Assembly: GCF_039822205.1 (NCBI RefSeq)
Contig: NZ_JBAGBW010000019.1
Location: 1 to 40,100 of the forward strand
Direction: 5' to 3'
DNA length: 40,100 bases
Source: Thermodesulfobium sp. 4217-1
GTDB lineage: Bacteria; Thermodesulfobiota; Thermodesulfobiia; Thermodesulfobiales; Thermodesulfobiaceae
Shown here: positions 31,774 to 38,482 of the stretch, piece after piece
Numbering within the stretch: the first letter of the stretch is position 1
How the letters are laid out: each line of letters begins with the position of its first letter
Made by a program: the position numbers and the translations under genes
The notes under the pieces: generated by a model
What the model was told of the DNA's origin: nothing
What the model saw: the letters and a program-made list of their open reading frames with translations, nothing else
The model's database searches: none

Positions 31774-33651
31774 TCACCTTGTAAATTTAAAATACATCAA
31801 GGTTATAATAAATGCGCCTATTATGTATGCTATATACCAGTGGATGCTTGAGTTCATAATGGTCTTTGAGAAGAAAGAGCTTATCTTGTTAGAAAGCTTT
31901 GTGATAAATGAGTAAAATGTCTCTATTATGTCTATACTGTAAACATAGGCCGTATCGCTTTCTCTTATTTCTTTAGTTTGATTGAGAGGCTTTAGGAGAG
32001 ATTCTACTATAAATGAATAGGCGCCTATTTTAAACGATTCAGTGCTCAAAGCCTCTAATCCTCCAACCCACGGTGACACCCTTTTTACATCTTTTTCCTT
32101 GCTCTTTAATTTCCAAAGAGCTACGAAAAATATAAAAATCATAATTGCGAATATTGTTGGAGACAAGACTCCAAAAATTGGCCTGCTTGAAACTATCAAA
32201 AGAGGCTTCGGGACCGCCAAAAGGCCATCTAAGAATGTAGGATATCCGAGGCCAATTACAATCAAAGGCGATATAAATCCTAAGGCGATAACCAGAAATA
32301 TCAGGATTGCTTCAGAAATTTTCATCGTCAGCGATTCTATATTTATCACTTCTTTAGTTTTTGTTCCAAGTGCGCTAAATCCTATTAATTTTTTCATACC
32401 GAATGAGCTAAGACCTATTGCAAGAGTAATTAAAATTGCAGAAAAGGTTACGATTAATTTTAAAGATAAATCATCAATCTTGTAAGATTGGAAGAAGGTT
32501 TCGAGTAACATCCAATCGGATACAAAGCCTATCAGGGGAGGGAAGGCGCTTAGAGAAAGGCCTGCGATAATTATGCCTAAGCCAGTTATCTTGCTTACAT
32601 ATTTGAAAACTCCACCCACATTGTCAATTAGCTCTTCTGAAAAAGCCTCTTTTGCATGGCCTATTGAGAGAAAAAGAGCTGTTTTGGAAAACGAGTGTGA
32701 AATTATTATAAATAATGCAGTAAGCATGGCAAATTGCGATAGGTACTGAAGACTTTGTGTGTTTGCAGTTAAGTAAGCTATGCCTAAGCTTGCAAGTATC
32801 ATGGAATTGTTCTCTATGGTAGAGTAAGCTGGCAATTTTTTAAGGCTCCTGGATCTGGCTGCCTGTAGCGCTCCCCAAAGAGCACTAACAGAACCTAATA
32901 AAATGCTTATGATTGCAAATATTTCTATATTTGGGTTTAAAGCAAATATTCTAAATATGCCATAAGTTCCTATTAGGGTAACTGGTACAGAAAGTATTGC
33001 AGCTACGTTTGAAGGAGATTTCGAGTATGTGGAGCTTATCCAGACGTGAAAGGGGATTATGTCCATTTTTATTATGAATGCTAGATAAGCAAAGCTCATA
33101 AATACAATATTGCCTACAGCATTCGCTATGATAAAGCTCCCAGTCTGAGCCCAAAGTGCGCCAAATGCAATAAAAAGTGCTATAGATGATGCTTCGCTAA
33201 ATGCAAGAAAGCTAAATGCCTCTTTATATGTATTTTTTCTCTCAAGAATGCTAAAAAATATTGCTATGGTCATACATTCGAATGAAATCAAAAAGGTTAT
33301 TGCATCTTGAGATGTCAAGATAAAAAACATTGCAAGCATTGAAATATTTATAAAGAGTGCCATCTTCTTGCTAAATAGTTTGTTAAAGTCTATCGAATAA
33401 AATGCGATTATCCCAAAAGAGATAAAGGCTATTATTAAAAAGATTGAAGATGTTTTATCGATTCCAAGCCTCAACGATATATCTGGAAATAGCACAAGAT
33501 TTAGAATATTTAGGGATCTTTCAAACCCCAGTATGCCAACTGCTATTGAAAAAACAGATCCAAGTACAGCAAAAATGCAGCTTAATTTATTCTTAAAAAA
33601 AGAAATTATTCCAAGCAAAAAACAAACAACACTTAATGTATAAAATATCAT
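31774..33651 (-). CDS. HyfB/NuoL-like antiporter subunit of the hydrogenase-like membrane complex
   Basis: This 625-residue polytopic protein belongs to the Mrp/NuoL/HyfB family of proton- or sodium-translocating subunits. The charged residues of the pumping path are kept: Glu in ISFECMTIA (TM5), the lysine in KMDIIPFHVWIS (TM7) and the lysine of SHSFSKTALFLSIGHAKEAF (TM8). C-terminal GGLEALSTESFKIGAYSFI matches the HyfB/HycC tail. It is the last gene of the six-gene operon, overlapping the small-subunit gene by four bases. In ordinary complexes this subunit is driven by the redox arm; here that arm has lost its metal sites. Confidence 0.88.
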   Translation of the reverse strand: MIFYTLSVVCFLLGIISFFKNKLSCIFAVLGSVFSIAVGILGFERSLNILNLVLFPDISLRLGIDKTSSIFLIIAFISFGIIAFYSIDFNKLFSKKMALFINISMLAMFFILTSQDAITFLISFECMTIAIFFSILERKNTYKEAFSFLAFSEASSIALFIAFGALWAQTGSFIIANAVGNIVFMSFAYLAFIIKMDIIPFHVWISSTYSKSPSNVAAILSVPVTLIGTYGIFRIFALNPNIEIFAIISILLGSVSALWGALQAARSRSLKKLPAYSTIENNSMILASLGIAYLTANTQSLQYLSQFAMLTALFIIISHSFSKTALFLSIGHAKEAFSEELIDNVGGVFKYVSKITGLGIIIAGLSLSAFPPLIGFVSDWMLLETFFQSYKIDDLSLKLIVTFSAILITLAIGLSSFGMKKLIGFSALGTKTKEVINIESLTMKISEAILIFLVIALGFISPLIVIGLGYPTFLDGLLAVPKPLLIVSSRPIFGVLSPTIFAIMIFIFFVALWKLKSKEKDVKRVSPWVGGLEALSTESFKIGAYSFIVESLLKPLNQTKEIRESDTAYVYSIDIIETFYSFITKLSNKISSFFSKTIMNSSIHWYIAYIIGAFIITLMYFKFTR

Positions 33652-34115
33652 TTTTTCTCATCACCTTTCATGAAGGCTAATATGTAGGAAAGCATTTCAT
33701 CTCTTGAGACATCACCCTTAATATGGCCTATTACATTGGGTATATCGAAATTGTCAAAACTAATGCCCAGGTCGTTGTTCTCAGTTAACAGTACGCCAAA
33801 AGGTTCGGGCATTTGGTTTATAGCTTCCAGCATTAGGGGGACCATTTTTTCAGTTGGCCTGCCTAAAACGATCAAAAGATCGGCCTCCCTTGGTGTTTGA
33901 GTAAAAAATATGCCAAGCCTGTGTAAATTGTATTTTGGCGACAAAAGCGCAAATATTTCAAAGTTTAAGGCATTATCATTTCCTACATCTATACAAAATA
34001 TGTGGATAGACCTCTTAAAAATATTTTTTATATATAGTTGCTTGAGATTTAATTTTGAAATATTTAATTTTTTTTCAGTATATTTTTTTGTTAAACCATA
34101 AATTGGCCAGAACAA
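33648..34115 (-). CDS. Hydrogenase small-subunit/NuoB-like protein lacking all Fe-S ligands
   Basis: The 155-residue protein aligns along its length with NuoB/HyfI-type small subunits, including FEIFALLSPKYNLHRLGI, READLLIVLGRPTEKM and MPEPFGVLL. The four cysteines that bind the proximal [4Fe-4S] cluster are gone. The CNGCD position reads DNALN (Asp47, Leu50), the GDCA position reads TENN (Asn113) and the PGCPP position reads HIKGD (Lys133 region). Only one cysteine remains, Cys41, outside the motif. The TTG start is behind GGAGG at a distance of five bases. The fold is kept but electron transfer through it is not possible by the known mechanism. It is encoded between the large subunit and the HyfB-like subunit with tight spacing. 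Confidence 0.85.
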   Translation of the reverse strand: MFWPIYGLTKKYTEKKLNISKLNLKQLYIKNIFKRSIHIFCIDVGNDNALNFEIFALLSPKYNLHRLGIFFTQTPREADLLIVLGRPTEKMVPLMLEAINQMPEPFGVLLTENNDLGISFDNFDIPNVIGHIKGDVSRDEMLSYILAFMKGDEKK

Positions 34116-34136
34116 TTTTTTCCTCCTTGATATTTT

Positions 34137-35372
34137 TTATCTTGCACAGTCGCAGAAAAATGCCCCAAAAGAATCGACTGTAAAAGGAAAGTCTGTAAAT
34201 ATCTGTCCTACCAATGCCTTTTGGATAGCCCTAAATAAAAAGGTGGATGGTGTACTGATATATACATAGTCAATCTTTTGATCTTTGATCTCTACATAGT
34301 ATGTTATCGATCCACTTGCCGATTCACTTTGACCGATTCCTGAGTCTCTCTTTTGAGAAGTCTTTAGAGATTTTGGGCTTTCTGGTTGAGTTTCTTGAAG
34401 TAATTCTATCGATTCTTCTATGATTTCCAAAGACTGACTTACTTCTTTGGCTCTTACTATCATTCTGGCAAGCGAGTCTCCCTCTTCTTCCAATATGGGT
34501 TTGAAATTTTTGGTGGTTTTGCTAAATTCTCTAATATCAAGACTGTAATTCATCGCTTTAAGCGCTGGCCCATCAAAGCCAATGTTATAAAAATCTTCTA
34601 TTGTTAGAATTCCTGTATTGTGAAGTCTGTCTAAATAATTTCTGCTGTCTAAACTGAAATTGTATATTTTCTTAAATTCATTTACTACTTTTTTTAGCTC
34701 TTCTAAGTAATTTAGGAAAAGCTCTTTCGGAAAATCTTTAACCTCTCCAACCCTTTTTATCTTCTTTAAGAAGGTGGAGTTAAAGTATTTTGAGTTTAAA
34801 GAAATGCATCTTTCGAACAAGTATAATAGATGAGAAGAATAAACTTTTTGGGCTGCTGATATAGAGAGCTTTACAATAACATAAATATGATTATAAATTC
34901 TCTCTATTTCTAAGAATATTACTCTTAGAAGCTTTGAATAGCCGCTTAGCTCTATACCAAGGGCCTCTTCTATTGCCTGGGTAAATGCTACAGAGTGAGA
35001 AAATGCAAAGTTTGAGCAAACTGACTCTGCAAGAGGTATGGCCTCATCAAAAGATCGACCAACCATAAGATTTTCAATCTTTCGTGATTTATAGGTTTGG
35101 TCTATGTTTACTGCAAGCATTCTTTCACCATAAGTTTTAAGATGGTAGATTGAGCACTCCTGATTGGCTCCTGCTAAAGGACCTAGCCTGAAATTAAATA
35201 CCTCTTCTGACGTAATGTTAGAATCTGTGTAAACATAGTCCCTATCTCTAAGCCAGTCATAATACTTAAAGTCTGTTTTTTGAGATAGATCAACAAGCCC
35301 TGTAAATGTGCCAGAGGATACAAGTAATTTTTCTGTATTATCTGAAGATATTATCCCTAAAAGTCTTTTCAT
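34137..35372 (-). CDS. Hydrogenase large-subunit/NuoD-like protein with degenerate NiFe site
   Basis: The 411-residue protein follows the group 4 hydrogenase large-subunit pattern: FRLGPL, ENLMVGRSFDEAIPLAE, FSHSVAFTQAIEEALGIE, then SITYYVEIKDQKIDYVYIST and the C-terminal DSFGAFF. The L1 motif R-I-C-G-x-C reads SVCSNF: Cys119 stays and the second cysteine is Phe122. The L2 motif DPCxxC reads GAFFCDC with Cys407 and Cys409 off register. The EAPRG arginine loop reads ESASGS. A four-cysteine NiFe centre cannot form. The family fits Ehr (energy-converting hydrogenase-related) complexes, which are defined by the loss of these motifs. It overlaps the HyfF-like gene by four bases. Confidence 0.85.
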   Translation of the reverse strand: MKRLLGIISSDNTEKLLVSSGTFTGLVDLSQKTDFKYYDWLRDRDYVYTDSNITSEEVFNFRLGPLAGANQECSIYHLKTYGERMLAVNIDQTYKSRKIENLMVGRSFDEAIPLAESVCSNFAFSHSVAFTQAIEEALGIELSGYSKLLRVIFLEIERIYNHIYVIVKLSISAAQKVYSSHLLYLFERCISLNSKYFNSTFLKKIKRVGEVKDFPKELFLNYLEELKKVVNEFKKIYNFSLDSRNYLDRLHNTGILTIEDFYNIGFDGPALKAMNYSLDIREFSKTTKNFKPILEEEGDSLARMIVRAKEVSQSLEIIEESIELLQETQPESPKSLKTSQKRDSGIGQSESASGSITYYVEIKDQKIDYVYISTPSTFLFRAIQKALVGQIFTDFPFTVDSFGAFFCDCAR

Positions 35373-36745
35373 TTTATTATTCCTCCAAGAAAGCTGTATA
35401 AAAATGGAATTGCAATCAAGAATAACAGGGACAAAGAAATACTTATCATAGGAATGTATACGAATTTGCTTTCAATAAAAGGTTTTTTGTCAGACTCACT
35501 GAACACCATGGATATGACTTTGTTGTTAATAAAGAGAAACGCAATGCACAAAAACGCAAACAGCACCGCTCCTGTGATATAACCATATATTTGGATTACC
35601 TTTGATAGTATTATCAGCTCCCCTACAAAGGTAGCAAATGGTGGAGCTCCTGTCACGGCAAGCGATCCGAAGAAGAAGAACAAACCTGTTTTTGGCATAA
35701 GGTTTATCATATTTTTTACATCTTCAATTTTTTTAGTTTTAAATCTGTGAAGTATGTTACCAGTCAACATAAAGGTTCCTGACTTTGCAAGGGCATGGGA
35801 GAAGATTAGAATTATGGCTCCAAAGAGACCAAAAGTTCCAAGGCTGATGCCAATCAAGGACATGCCCATATTTTCAATTGAAGAATAAGCAAACAGTCTC
35901 TTGTAAATTGTTTGTGAGCCTGCAATGATAGCTGCTGTGGCCACGCTAAGAAATCCTAAGGAAAATGCAAAGAGGCTAAGGTAGTAATTTGGAAATATTT
36001 CAAATATTCTAATCAAAGGATAAAGGGAGACTGGCAAGAGTACTGCAGAAAATATAGCGCTCACTGGTGCTGGAGCCTTTCCGTGAGCGTCAGGAAGCCA
36101 TGTGTACATTGGGAAGATGCCGGCCTTAGTGCCGTATCCAATGATTGACAAGAGAGATCCCAATAAAAATATGCTATCAGTTGGGTGGAGTTGCAATAAG
36201 CTAAATATAGATAGTGTTTTCTCGCTAGAGTATATAAATAGGGTAGCTATAAGAGATATTATTAAGCCAACTGACACAATTATTATATATCTGTATGCTG
36301 CCTCGACTGCAATTGAGTCGTTTTGGGTAGACACCAAAAGAGCGCTAGTAAAGGTTGTGGCTTCAATTCCTACCCAAATTAAGCCAAGGTTGTTCAATAC
36401 AACTGATGCAAATAGAGCTGAGACGAAGATATTCAATAAGCTAAAATACTGATGAACTTTTATCAGTTTGTTTTCAATGTGATTGATATATTCTATGGAA
36501 AAAATTACAACGCTTAAATATACAATTGATATCATTAGAGAGAATACTTTGGAAAGATTGTCAACGTATAGGTAATTGTTTTGTACAGTTGGCTCCCAAA
36601 ATCCTACAATGACTGATAATATGCAAAGTACAGAGGACGCAATAGAAATGGTTTTTGCAAATCTTTTAAATGCAAAAAAGCCAATAATTGATGCAATAAA
36701 AGAAATTAGACAGGGTAGTAGATAAATAAATTCAAAATTAATCAT
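35369..36745 (-). CDS. HyfF/NuoN-like antiporter subunit of the hydrogenase-like membrane complex
   Basis: This 458-residue antiporter-like subunit keeps all residues that make a Mrp-type channel work: Glu in VGIEATTF, lysine in YGTKAGIFPMYTWLPDAHGK, and the Lys/His of IFSHALAKSGTFML. The extended APAPVSAIFS loop is normal for HyfF. At about 14 hydrophobic segments it is a complete pump module. It overlaps hyfE by four bases upstream and the large-subunit gene downstream. Because both antiporter-like subunits are intact while the catalytic ones are not, the complex probably still moves ions. Confidence 0.9.
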   Translation of the reverse strand: MINFEFIYLLPCLISFIASIIGFFAFKRFAKTISIASSVLCILSVIVGFWEPTVQNNYLYVDNLSKVFSLMISIVYLSVVIFSIEYINHIENKLIKVHQYFSLLNIFVSALFASVVLNNLGLIWVGIEATTFTSALLVSTQNDSIAVEAAYRYIIIVSVGLIISLIATLFIYSSEKTLSIFSLLQLHPTDSIFLLGSLLSIIGYGTKAGIFPMYTWLPDAHGKAPAPVSAIFSAVLLPVSLYPLIRIFEIFPNYYLSLFAFSLGFLSVATAAIIAGSQTIYKRLFAYSSIENMGMSLIGISLGTFGLFGAIILIFSHALAKSGTFMLTGNILHRFKTKKIEDVKNMINLMPKTGLFFFFGSLAVTGAPPFATFVGELIILSKVIQIYGYITGAVLFAFLCIAFLFINNKVISMVFSESDKKPFIESKFVYIPMISISLSLLFLIAIPFLYSFLGGIIK

Positions 36746-37365
36746 CCGTATAGCTCCTCCTCATTGTCTATATTTTCCTTTCTGAGCCTCATTATTATGG
36801 AGCTAACCAAGACAATTCCCAATATATCGAGTACTATGCCTGCCTCTACTATGAAAGGGAGTCCACTGAAGATATATCCAAAAAGAAAGATAGAGTTCTC
36901 CATTACCAAATATCCAATCAACTGATTGTACGCATTTGACTTTGAAATAATGAGAAAAGCACCTTGTAGCATGAGGGTGATGGGGATAGATTCGAGAACT
37001 GAGCCAGAATTTGACAGAGCTATTGAATATAGCCCATAACTAAAAAGCGCAAGACAGATAGAAATGATGATCGAAAGGCTCACGCCAAGTGGATTTTTCG
37101 ACTCTCTAACTCTCCAAATATCCTTTTTAATCGTTTTTAAAAGATATCGAGGGATAAAAATGGCTCTGGTTAAGATGGTTAAAATTGCAAGAATTATTAA
37201 AGTAGGCTCTCTATTTATAATGCCTATGGCAAGAAGAAAAATCCCCAATATCCATGAAGAAAGATCAAAGGTTTTTATTGTAGTGGAAATATAAGATTGC
37301 CACTGCATAAAAACTATCAGTATTATCTGTATAAATCCAACCAGTATAAATATATTATTTTGCAT
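36742..37365 (-). CDS. HyfE-like membrane subunit
   Basis: The 207-residue protein has about six hydrophobic segments and matches the HyfE type (a NuoK-related membrane subunit), seen in NAYNQLIGYLVMENSIFLFG and GIVLDILGIVLVSSIIM. A glutamate within the VMENS helix is the residue usually kept in this family. It lies eight bases after the HyfC-like gene and overlaps the HyfF-like gene. It would form part of the connecting membrane arm between the NuoH-like and antiporter subunits. Confidence 0.85.
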   Translation of the reverse strand: MQNNIFILVGFIQIILIVFMQWQSYISTTIKTFDLSSWILGIFLLAIGIINREPTLIILAILTILTRAIFIPRYLLKTIKKDIWRVRESKNPLGVSLSIIISICLALFSYGLYSIALSNSGSVLESIPITLMLQGAFLIISKSNAYNQLIGYLVMENSIFLFGYIFSGLPFIVEAGIVLDILGIVLVSSIIMRLRKENIDNEEELYG

Positions 37366-37373
37366 TTTCTACC

Positions 37374-38336
37374 TCACATTTTCGTGGTATAAAAGACTAT
37401 CATTGCAATAAGTGCAAAGGCGAAGCCTACCGATATGAAATCAAATATTTTCATCAATCTATACTTGGAAAGGGTAGTGTTTATAAGGGCGAAGATAAAA
37501 ATTAGAATTAACATCTTGAAAAAGTTAATGAACATGTATATAAGAACATTTAATATATTCATTTGCATTGGCACAAAGAATGGGAATGTGAACACGTTTA
37601 TAAACACGTTCATTAACAAGAAGGCTTTTATATAGCTTCCCCATTTATTTAGAGCAAGCTCTTTCCCTGAATATTCAAGATTTAGAGATTGATCTATCAT
37701 GCCAAGCTCGTTGCTAGAATCAGATTCAATAGGCAGGCTGCCTGTCTCGATGATCAGAAGAAAAAAGAATGCTGCTGCAATAAAGATATGTGTTAGTGAA
37801 AAATACCACAAATTAGATGTTTGGAGTATGTTGTTAATTACATAAGGATTATTCGTTCCAGATATTACTCCGAACATTATAAATATGAGTAATAATATAG
37901 GCTCTGTGAAGACCCCAATTGACGATGCTCTGGATGCACCAAGAATAGAGTAATTGTTTCTTGTGTCAAGAGCTGCTATCTTTTTTAATGTAGATGCTGC
38001 TGCGAAAATTAACCCACCTCCTATAAAGTCAACCACTGGACCGAAAGTAAGAGGAAATGCAGTAATGATGGGCAATACAAGAGTCAATAACAGATACATT
38101 GCAAAGGTTAGATATGGCGTGATCTCGAAAAGGACCGATGTGGTGATCGGATATGTACTTTGTTTTTTGAAAAGCTTAAAGAGGTTGTAATACTCTTGAA
38201 AGATTGATGGACCAATTTTTGATTCTATTCTTTCTTCAACCTTTCTGAGTATGCCTACTGCAAGGGGAGCAAGTGTTACAACGTAAATTAATTGGACAAA
38301 AGATAGGGCTAAGAGCTCAAAATCTTTACTAAGCAT
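37374..38336 (-). CDS. HyfC/NuoH-like membrane anchor subunit
   Basis: The 320-residue protein has eight or so membrane helices and is the NuoH/HyfC/EchB homologue that normally anchors the soluble catalytic arm. KVEERIESKIGPSIFQEYYNLFKLFKK matches the conserved cytoplasmic loop (R-x-GP-x-x-x-Q), and ETGSLPIESDSSNELGMIDQ is the second signature with its conserved acidic residues. It is the first structural gene of the operon. The ATG has only a weak upstream site, and a twelve-residue leader frame overlaps it by eight bases, so its translation may depend on that leader. Confidence 0.88.
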   Translation of the reverse strand: MLSKDFELLALSFVQLIYVVTLAPLAVGILRKVEERIESKIGPSIFQEYYNLFKLFKKQSTYPITTSVLFEITPYLTFAMYLLLTLVLPIITAFPLTFGPVVDFIGGGLIFAAASTLKKIAALDTRNNYSILGASRASSIGVFTEPILLLIFIMFGVISGTNNPYVINNILQTSNLWYFSLTHIFIAAAFFFLLIIETGSLPIESDSSNELGMIDQSLNLEYSGKELALNKWGSYIKAFLLMNVFINVFTFPFFVPMQMNILNVLIYMFINFFKMLILIFIFALINTTLSKYRLMKIFDFISVGFAFALIAMIVFYTTKM

Positions 38337-38367
38337 AATTTTTGCCTTTTTGACAAATGAAACTCAT
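38329..38367 (-). CDS. Short leader reading frame between the riboswitch and the HyfC-like gene
   Basis: Minus-strand ATG at 38367 lies eleven bases after the AGGAG at 38383-38379. It opens a twelve-codon frame (MSFICQKGKNYA) whose stop overlaps the first bases of the HyfC-like gene by eight. The arrangement is that of translational coupling: ribosomes loaded at the riboswitch-controlled site would end at the next start. It could instead be an accident of sequence, with the AGGAG acting on the main start from a distance. Confidence 0.35.
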   Translation of the reverse strand: MSFICQKGKNYA

Positions 38368-38377
38368 TGGCGTTTCA

Positions 38378-38450
38378 ACTCCTTTCAAAAATATACTAGG
38401 AGTCATCAGCCATCTATGGGGCATTACGGTGAACTCCATCACCGAAAGCT
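38378..38450 (-). ncRNA. Fluoride riboswitch (crcB motif) with a Shine-Dalgarno-sequestering platform
   Basis: On the minus strand GGTGATGGAGTTCACC (38443-38428) is the crcB stem with its loop, and GGCTGATGACTCCTA (38411-38397) is the highly conserved 3' half. The loop GGAGT (38437-38433) can form the defining pseudoknot with ACTCC (38403-38399), and GCC (38422-38420) pairs with GGC (38411-38409). Downstream, AGGAGT (38383-38378) can pair instead with ACTCCT (38403-38398). This puts a ribosome-binding sequence in competition with the aptamer. Fluoride would free it, giving an ON switch at translation. The promoter ends right before the aptamer, so it begins the transcript of the hydrogenase-like operon. 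Confidence 0.92.
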
Positions 38451-38452
38451 AC

Positions 38453-38482
38453 CTTATACCACAAAAAGACATTGATTGTCAA
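38453..38482 (-). promoter_or_regulatory. Promoter of the riboswitch-controlled membrane-complex operon
   Basis: Minus-strand TTGACA (38482-38477) and TATAAG (38458-38453) are 18 bases apart. Transcription would begin near 38446, three or so bases before the aptamer stem, which is exactly where a riboswitch transcript should start. Confidence 0.88.

Follow-up and report, generated by a model that had tools for sequence, protein, structure and literature searches.

A fluoride riboswitch heads an operon for an Ehr-type membrane complex without NiFe ligands, a possible ion translocator of bacteria and archaea

Why would a bacterium place relatives of hydrogenase-4 and respiratory complex I behind a switch that senses fluoride? 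The question is raised by a stretch of 40,100 nucleotides from Thermodesulfobium sp. 4217-1 (contig NZ_JBAGBW010000019.1; the whole stretch is called the window here), where a fluoride riboswitch aptamer is placed directly upstream of a six-gene operon, C-E-F-Large-Small-B, named for its HyfC-, HyfE-, HyfF-, large-subunit-, small-subunit-, and HyfB-like products. Such a pairing has been known in outline since 2010, and it is confirmed here. Judging from sequence comparison, we propose with moderate confidence that the complex is an Ehr-type (energy-converting-hydrogenase-related) ion translocator without a nickel-iron (NiFe) site, induced by fluoride and probably serving as an antiporter that restores the balance of protons and cations.

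The first-pass annotation of this DNA had described a clear crcB-motif aptamer behind a near-consensus promoter. The aptamer was borne out by a covariance search: the Rfam family RF01734 matches positions 38452-38390 of the minus strand over its full model length (E 3.8e-8, cut-off 34 bits), and the window's genome (2,000,902 bases, rated 100% complete) holds no other at E <= 0.001. The elements of the leader are as follows.

38453..38482, minus strand: candidate promoter TTGACA-N18-TATAAG, seen in the sequence directly upstream of the aptamer
38390..38452, minus strand: fluoride riboswitch aptamer (RF01734), Rfam covariance match, 41.0 bits
38379..38385, minus strand: Shine-Dalgarno-like AAAGGAG, paired with the aptamer's ACUCCU (38403-38398) in the predicted fold
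38329..38367, minus strand: leader open reading frame (ORF) of 12 codons, read from the sequence

For the promoter, the near-consensus label is a fair description of the two boxes (TTGACA at 38482-38477 and TATAAG at 38458-38453, 18 bases apart), although it comes with no evidence of function; our consensus promoter scan omits it, since that scan accepts a -10 box only if it ends in T. The minimum-energy fold of the leader has -32.7 kcal/mol (z -2.23), and 6 of 200 shuffles fold equally well or better. In the aptamer pseudoknot, the ACUCCU strand that this fold pairs with the ribosome-binding site is presumably joined to GGAGU instead. A terminator was sought in the leader and none was found, which, together with the pairing of ACUCCU and AAAGGAG, suggests that the operon is controlled at translation, with fluoride as the on signal. 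The ribosome site lies upstream of the leader ORF, and the stop of that ORF overlaps the HyfC start, so the two may be translationally coupled. A GGAG- or GAGG-like motif within about 90 nt 3' of the aptamer was seen in 38 of 43 loci, a count made without a chance control.

Behind this leader stand the six genes of the operon.

37374..38336, minus strand: HyfC/HycD/NuoH-like membrane subunit, 320 amino acids (PF00146, E 1.8e-30)
36742..37365, minus strand: HyfE-like membrane subunit, 207 amino acids (NF008556, E 1.1e-9, under the curated cut-off)
35369..36745, minus strand: HyfF-like antiporter subunit, 458 amino acids (PF00361, E 7.5e-49)
34137..35372, minus strand: hydrogenase/complex I large-subunit homologue without NiFe ligands, 411 amino acids (PF00346, E 2.2e-21)
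33648..34115, minus strand: NuoB/HycG-like small subunit without the cysteines of an iron-sulfur (FeS) cluster, 155 amino acids, TTG start (NuoB model, E 9.7e-12, below cut-off)
31774..33651, minus strand: HyfB-like antiporter subunit, 625 amino acids (PF00361, E 1.6e-24)

Order and strand agree with the earlier description of six coupled genes, and neighbours that overlap or stand no more than 21 bases apart support a single transcript. By sequence, the closest entries in the Protein Data Bank (PDB) are subunit 4 of formate hydrogenlyase (FHL; 7z0s_D) for HyfC, an FHL subunit for HyfB, and the Pyrococcus complexes MBS (6u8y) and MBH (6cfw) for HyfF. The large subunit also matches PF00374, more weakly than PF00346, and its AlphaFold model (mean pLDDT 90.0) has E. 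coli HycE as its nearest fold (TMq 0.88). Neither the HyfE-like nor the small subunit has a match in Pfam; NuoB models match the small subunit below their cut-offs, and its structural model (mean pLDDT 79.9) is closest in fold to HycG (7z0t_G/7z0s_G). A GGDEF-EAL gene farther downstream (31726-29162) was considered as a seventh member and dropped, as it has a promoter match of its own (12/12, TTGACA-18-TATAAT, 31764-31735, minus strand), consistent with an operon that ends at HyfB; the match comes from a scan that returned 18 promoter-like sites where 10.8 were expected by chance.

The pairing of riboswitch and operon recurs in other genomes. A riboswitch match is present in 23 of the 116 genomes sampled, and in six of these the match lies about 3-4 kb upstream of a large-subunit homologue and directly before HyfC: the window's genome, two congeners, and the genomes G095, G099, and G100, the last with a score of 32.7, below the cut-off. 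Within the window's own phylum, three of the four genomes searched have both operon and riboswitch. The fourth, the congener G003, has no operon and no fluoride riboswitch match either, and the two may thus have been gained or lost together.

A larger sample was drawn by a contig search with the HyfC alignment, from which the best 80 of at least 549 relatives, chosen by protein similarity, were taken. By record title and taxonomy, its bacteria include Desulfurellales and other Campylobacterota, Bacteroidota, Thermotogota, a Spirochaetales metagenome-assembled genome (MAG), Streptosporangiaceae, and others, and its archaea Thermococcus, Archaeoglobaceae, Thermoplasmatota, and Nitrososphaerota. 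A riboswitch model was built on 29 sequences, 6 of which come from this operon type. With it, a match of at least 32 bits stands on the same strand within about 420 nt upstream of HyfC in 42 of the 80 loci, and a weaker one at HyfC in another 24, of which 8 have a strong match farther upstream in the same direction. The weak matches are far above chance, with 24 of 40 at the expected place, a target of about 1.3% of all bases searched. As a check independent of the 29-sequence model, Rfam confirms 15 of the 18 loci tested, with L086, L105, and L114 falling short. A second riboswitch model, R2, matched high-GC loci on either strand (20-26 bits), and its matches were therefore not counted. This recurrence in two domains, found by the kind of survey that the first-pass annotation had suggested, gives good support to its claim that the complex is part of the fluoride response.

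Gene order offers a second line of evidence. A broad large-subunit alignment was searched in 386 genomes, and 20 further loci were taken with their surroundings. The order C-E-F-Large-Small-B is present in four, each with a riboswitch match at HyfC (57.5, 56.5, 42.5, and 21.6 bits with the 29-riboswitch model); one of them, L281, is probably the same genome as the Desulfurella acetivorans record, so three are independent. None of the 16 other loci has a riboswitch at the operon start, which in L291 lies off the contig, and in 15 of these 16 HyfB precedes HyfC (gene order versus riboswitch, Fisher p 2e-4). Rfam confirms all three that were tested of the four, scoring the 21.6-bit locus at 35.4, and finds no riboswitch in the 8 tested of the 16. 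In a large-subunit tree of 89 rows, obtained by a fast search with no bootstrapping, the clade (64 rows, one gene twice, some rows without a riboswitch) is split from 25 others with a support of 97 in the Shimodaira-Hasegawa-like approximate likelihood ratio test (SH-aLRT), and a bacterial branch of 20 rows without FeS cysteines has SH-aLRT 100. By its sequences, the clade spans bacteria and archaea.

What kind of machine does this clade encode? Large-subunit ligands were read in 67 rows, which include the window and two congeners, hold one genome twice (L064 and L090), and contain one row, L133, that ends before the L2 motif. The NiFe cysteine pair of L1 (RxCGxC) or L2 (DPCxxC) is complete in none of them; the first L1 cysteine is retained in 28, and the outgroup row L068 carries all four cysteines. 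The small-subunit CxxC is present in 44 of the 67 rows, all archaeal except L065, L144, L148, and L151, and absent from 23. Those 23 are all bacterial and include the window, whose small subunit has a single cysteine in total and no CxxC. The Glu and Lys residues of HyfF (E128, K207, K282, and K321; 66 of 66 rows) and of HyfB (E125, K195, and K323; 58 of 58 rows) are invariant, and we call them ion-path residues by alignment to solved relatives and from what is generally known of such subunits. On these alignments, the window-type complex appears to have retained its ion path, and its electron path appears to be gone.

An ion pump or antiporter that restores ion balance, as the first-pass annotation had suggested, is the best fit to intact ion-path residues without redox ligands. 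Without fluoride, the aptamer's ACUCCU would pair with the AAAGGAG ribosome-binding site and translation would be kept low; with fluoride, the aptamer pseudoknot would fold and free the site. Hydrogen fluoride (HF) entering the cell would acidify it and disturb its cation balance, and HyfF and HyfB, together with HyfC and HyfE, would swap protons for a cation such as Na+, powered by a gradient already present. The large and small subunits, devoid of redox-centre ligands in the bacterial version, would form a structural or gating cap, a role that we infer, as we do the ligand response and the species and direction of the ion. In this way the complex would take the slot held elsewhere by riboswitch-controlled Na+/H+ exchangers. 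It resembles the Mrp antiporter in having antiporter-like subunits with conserved Glu and Lys, and differs in that the MrpA-G gene set was not found in an operon consisting of C-E-F-Large-Small-B only.

Several observations weigh against such a translocator. If the complex were simply an antiporter, there would be no obvious need for its conserved large and small subunits, and conserved Glu and Lys do not reveal which ion moves. The archaeal members and the four bacterial rows with CxxC may, given those retained cysteines, still do redox chemistry. Of the 80 loci, 12 have no riboswitch match, among them the Nitrososphaerales or related loci L096-L100 and L117, and 2 have a distant weak one; L146, without a match, offers only about 50 bases upstream, and L132, without one at HyfC, has a rearranged operon with a 32.4-bit match before HyfF. 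Finally, 13 of the 50 operon genomes surveyed for exporters have CrcB over the cut-off, which fits a helper role for the complex and proves nothing.

That no known fluoride exporter was found in the window's genome keeps another reading alive, one that we consider improbable: the complex itself could be a multi-subunit, H+- or Na+-coupled fluoride exporter that replaces CrcB/Fluc and CLC-F. As the earlier description stated, neither crcB nor eriC is among the six genes, and the whole genome has no match to CrcB (PF02537). Its two CLC proteins both read GREGP, not the GREGT/V of CLC-F, and the only fluoride riboswitch found in it heads this operon. The signatures of CLC-F are given as GNNLI/GMGLI, GREGT/V, and GEVTP in the part of PMC11139923 that was available, and a CLC behind a riboswitch in G055 (L246) has GNNLI, GREGT, and GEVTP, so typing by these motifs works.

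The exporter census covered 50 operon genomes out of the 78 genomes behind the 80 loci; nearly all are MAGs by title, with completeness not given, which tells against reading their gaps as exporter replacement. At E <= 0.001 CrcB matches occur in 14 of the 50, leaving 36 without a match. In 37 genomes CrcB is not over the cut-off; 32 of these contain CLC matches, and the CLC-F motif was found in none of the 37: the readable motifs are all GREGP, with one GREAA, and four matches were not read (L203 and L208 show no motif; G129:C34 and G124:C5:4812 were not fetched). The complete genome of Desulfurella acetivorans A63 belongs to these exporter-less carriers.

Against export stands the finding that a lack of exporters is not special to the operon: among 17 sampled riboswitch genomes without it, 8 have CrcB, 1 has CLC-F, and 8 have neither. 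CrcB is over the cut-off in 13 of 50 operon genomes versus 48 of 110 operon-less relatives (Fisher p 0.036), but measured against these 17 the excess is weak, with a known exporter in 13 of 50 versus 9 of 17 (Fisher p 0.07). In addition, profile searches place no subunit in a known fluoride carrier family, and some members adjoin a riboswitch-led CrcB. With exporter-less riboswitch genomes so common and the direct comparison at p 0.07, exporter replacement was not accepted as the principal explanation. In 6 of the 8 exporter-less, operon-less genomes, a Na+/H+ exchanger (PF00999, Na_H_Exchanger) stands behind the riboswitch; in the other two, the riboswitch precedes a prenyltransferase-like protein and a dynamin. 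The operon therefore seems to occupy the exchanger slot, which favours ion balance over fluoride export. These exchangers share the regulatory position of the operon and differ in being single-gene proteins, of an unrelated fold. Na+/H+ antiporters are the next commonest riboswitch-controlled class after exporters in the available part of PMC11139923. Were export nevertheless the answer, which we doubt, the complex would be a third class of fluoride exporter, six-subunit, complex-I-derived, redox-free, and driven by a proton or sodium gradient, in bacteria and archaea without Fluc or CLC-F. Many of the groups that carry it are presumably acidophiles or hydrothermal organisms.

Rather unlikely, too, is a redox-driven ion pump of the Mbx/MBS kind that, with ferredoxin or some other donor, restores the membrane gradient under fluoride. 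The 44 members with a small-subunit CxxC and the likeness of the membrane subunits to MBS, MBH, and FHL speak for such a pump, but the window and another 22 bacterial rows have lost the cluster cysteines, and no ferredoxin-like subunit is encoded in the window's own operon, though extra genes may occur in those of the other 22. MBS and MBH, which carry further membrane genes, are the best PDB matches of HyfF and differ from the window in the cluster ligands that its small subunit lacks.

A similar doubt touches what has been suspected of Ehr complexes. In these, membrane parts of antiporter-like or complex-I-like type are joined to a group-4-like large subunit that lacks the CxxC motifs for NiFe, a definition that covers the window's complex. 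Their function is given as unknown or as suspected redox coupling in the parts available of four papers (PMC6349859, PMC10432482, PMC10284858, and PMC4378227), one of which places six syntenic genes of unknown function near each Ehr-type large subunit in Sulfobacillus (PMC4378227). The window differs in that its small subunit is also without FeS cysteines, and the Ehr papers, in these same parts, give no tie to fluoride; the word is absent from the main texts of PMC10432482 and PMC4378227. For the window type, the missing FeS ligands would argue against redox-coupled charge translocation.

It is highly improbable that, as published work implies, fluoride induces an FHL or hydrogenase-4 here so as to turn metabolism towards fermentation. 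The best family names and several PDB matches do point that way (HyfB/F, HycD, HycE, and HycG), and FHL was named among the genes behind crcB RNA (Weinberg 2010, PMC2864571) and, in a 2024 review that tied it to sugar fermentation, among the commonest fluoride-riboswitch enzymes (PMC11139923), each source being cited for the part that was available. However, both NiFe cysteine pairs are absent from all 67 rows, and neither a formate dehydrogenase nor a HycB/HyfA-type FeS gene is among the six genes of the window's operon (the search for them covered the operon only). With its NiFe ligands missing, a hydrogenase is contradicted for the clade and was rejected. E. coli formate hydrogenlyase-1 (7z0s/7z0t) is the nearest solved fold for the large and small subunits and the nearest PDB sequence for HyfC and HyfB; in contrast to it, the window's operon has no NiFe site, FeS ligands, HycB, FdhF, or maturation gene. 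The published association and ours are alike in a fluoride riboswitch before genes annotated as FHL, and differ in that the window's clade is without NiFe ligands and its bacterial subclade without FeS ligands. We infer that the published loci are loci of this clade.

That the riboswitch is degenerate or fortuitous and regulates nothing here deserves hardly more credence, as 41 bits is a modest score but the element recurs before the same operon in many groups and again in the further loci.

As far as our searches reach, four things are new: the identity of the riboswitch-controlled complex as NiFe-less and Ehr-type, marked by gene order together with the riboswitch; the loss of FeS ligands in a bacterial branch with an intact ion path; the reach of the complex over two domains; and the existence of several carriers without a known exporter. 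A link between the fluoride riboswitch and a NiFe-less Ehr-type complex was not found among the titles listed from the openly licensed PMC literature.

The surroundings of the operon yielded further observations. Beside it, in some loci, other riboswitch units carry CrcB, DUF190, Usp, MutS_V, and dynamin genes. The Bacteroidota locus L087 has further riboswitches before a dynamin-like GTPase and before CrcB followed by DUF190, and four Streptosporangiaceae loci have a strong riboswitch before a Usp-like gene upstream of the operon (a Pfam match shows Usp for L144 and DUF190 for L147; the others were assigned by look only). The DUF190 proteins at L087:9331-9726 and L147:9472-9858 have the operon on one side and a riboswitch-led CrcB or Usp-like gene on the other, and DUF190 is possibly an unrecognised fluoride protein. 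Riboswitches also precede MutS_V-domain proteins at L089:797-2383 and, in an archaeon, at L132:12372-13892, in line with the link of mutS to crcB RNA already made in 2010 (PMC2864571, in the part available). Dynamin_N GTPases follow a riboswitch in several genomes of different families, at L071:1866-3611, L072:1463-3193, L087:4181-5977, and L045:1-1485.

Other observations concern individual genomes. Right after the operon in G099 stands a molybdenum/tungsten riboswitch (RF01055, 87 bits, L063:9299-9418) with a gene for a solute-binding protein. In the congener G002, HyfF is split into two ORFs (L067:13169-14545), by sequencing error or decay, and in G095 a CitMHS transporter gene lies inside the operon between the large and small subunits (L065:6713-7768). 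Elsewhere in the window's own genome, a [NiFe] hydrogenase-like large subunit (G000:C3:107557-108711, minus strand; L300) has an in-frame TGA at the second L1 cysteine, in the context RVCGI*SM[TS]HP and with DPCLSCTQR kept. The context was read in three genes (L300 and the congeners' L301 and L302), and one TGA is present in all four congeners; a selenocysteine in L1 is possible.

A fluoride-induced, Ehr-type antiporter would join two loose ends in the literature as far as it was available, namely Ehr complexes of unknown function and riboswitch-controlled "formate hydrogenlyase" genes read as fermentation genes. If our proposal is true, the window encodes a natural complex-I-type ion machinery that runs without electrons, and it points to a way of coping with fluoride in organisms without Fluc or CLC-F. 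It is probably one of the less understood means by which microbes withstand fluoride.

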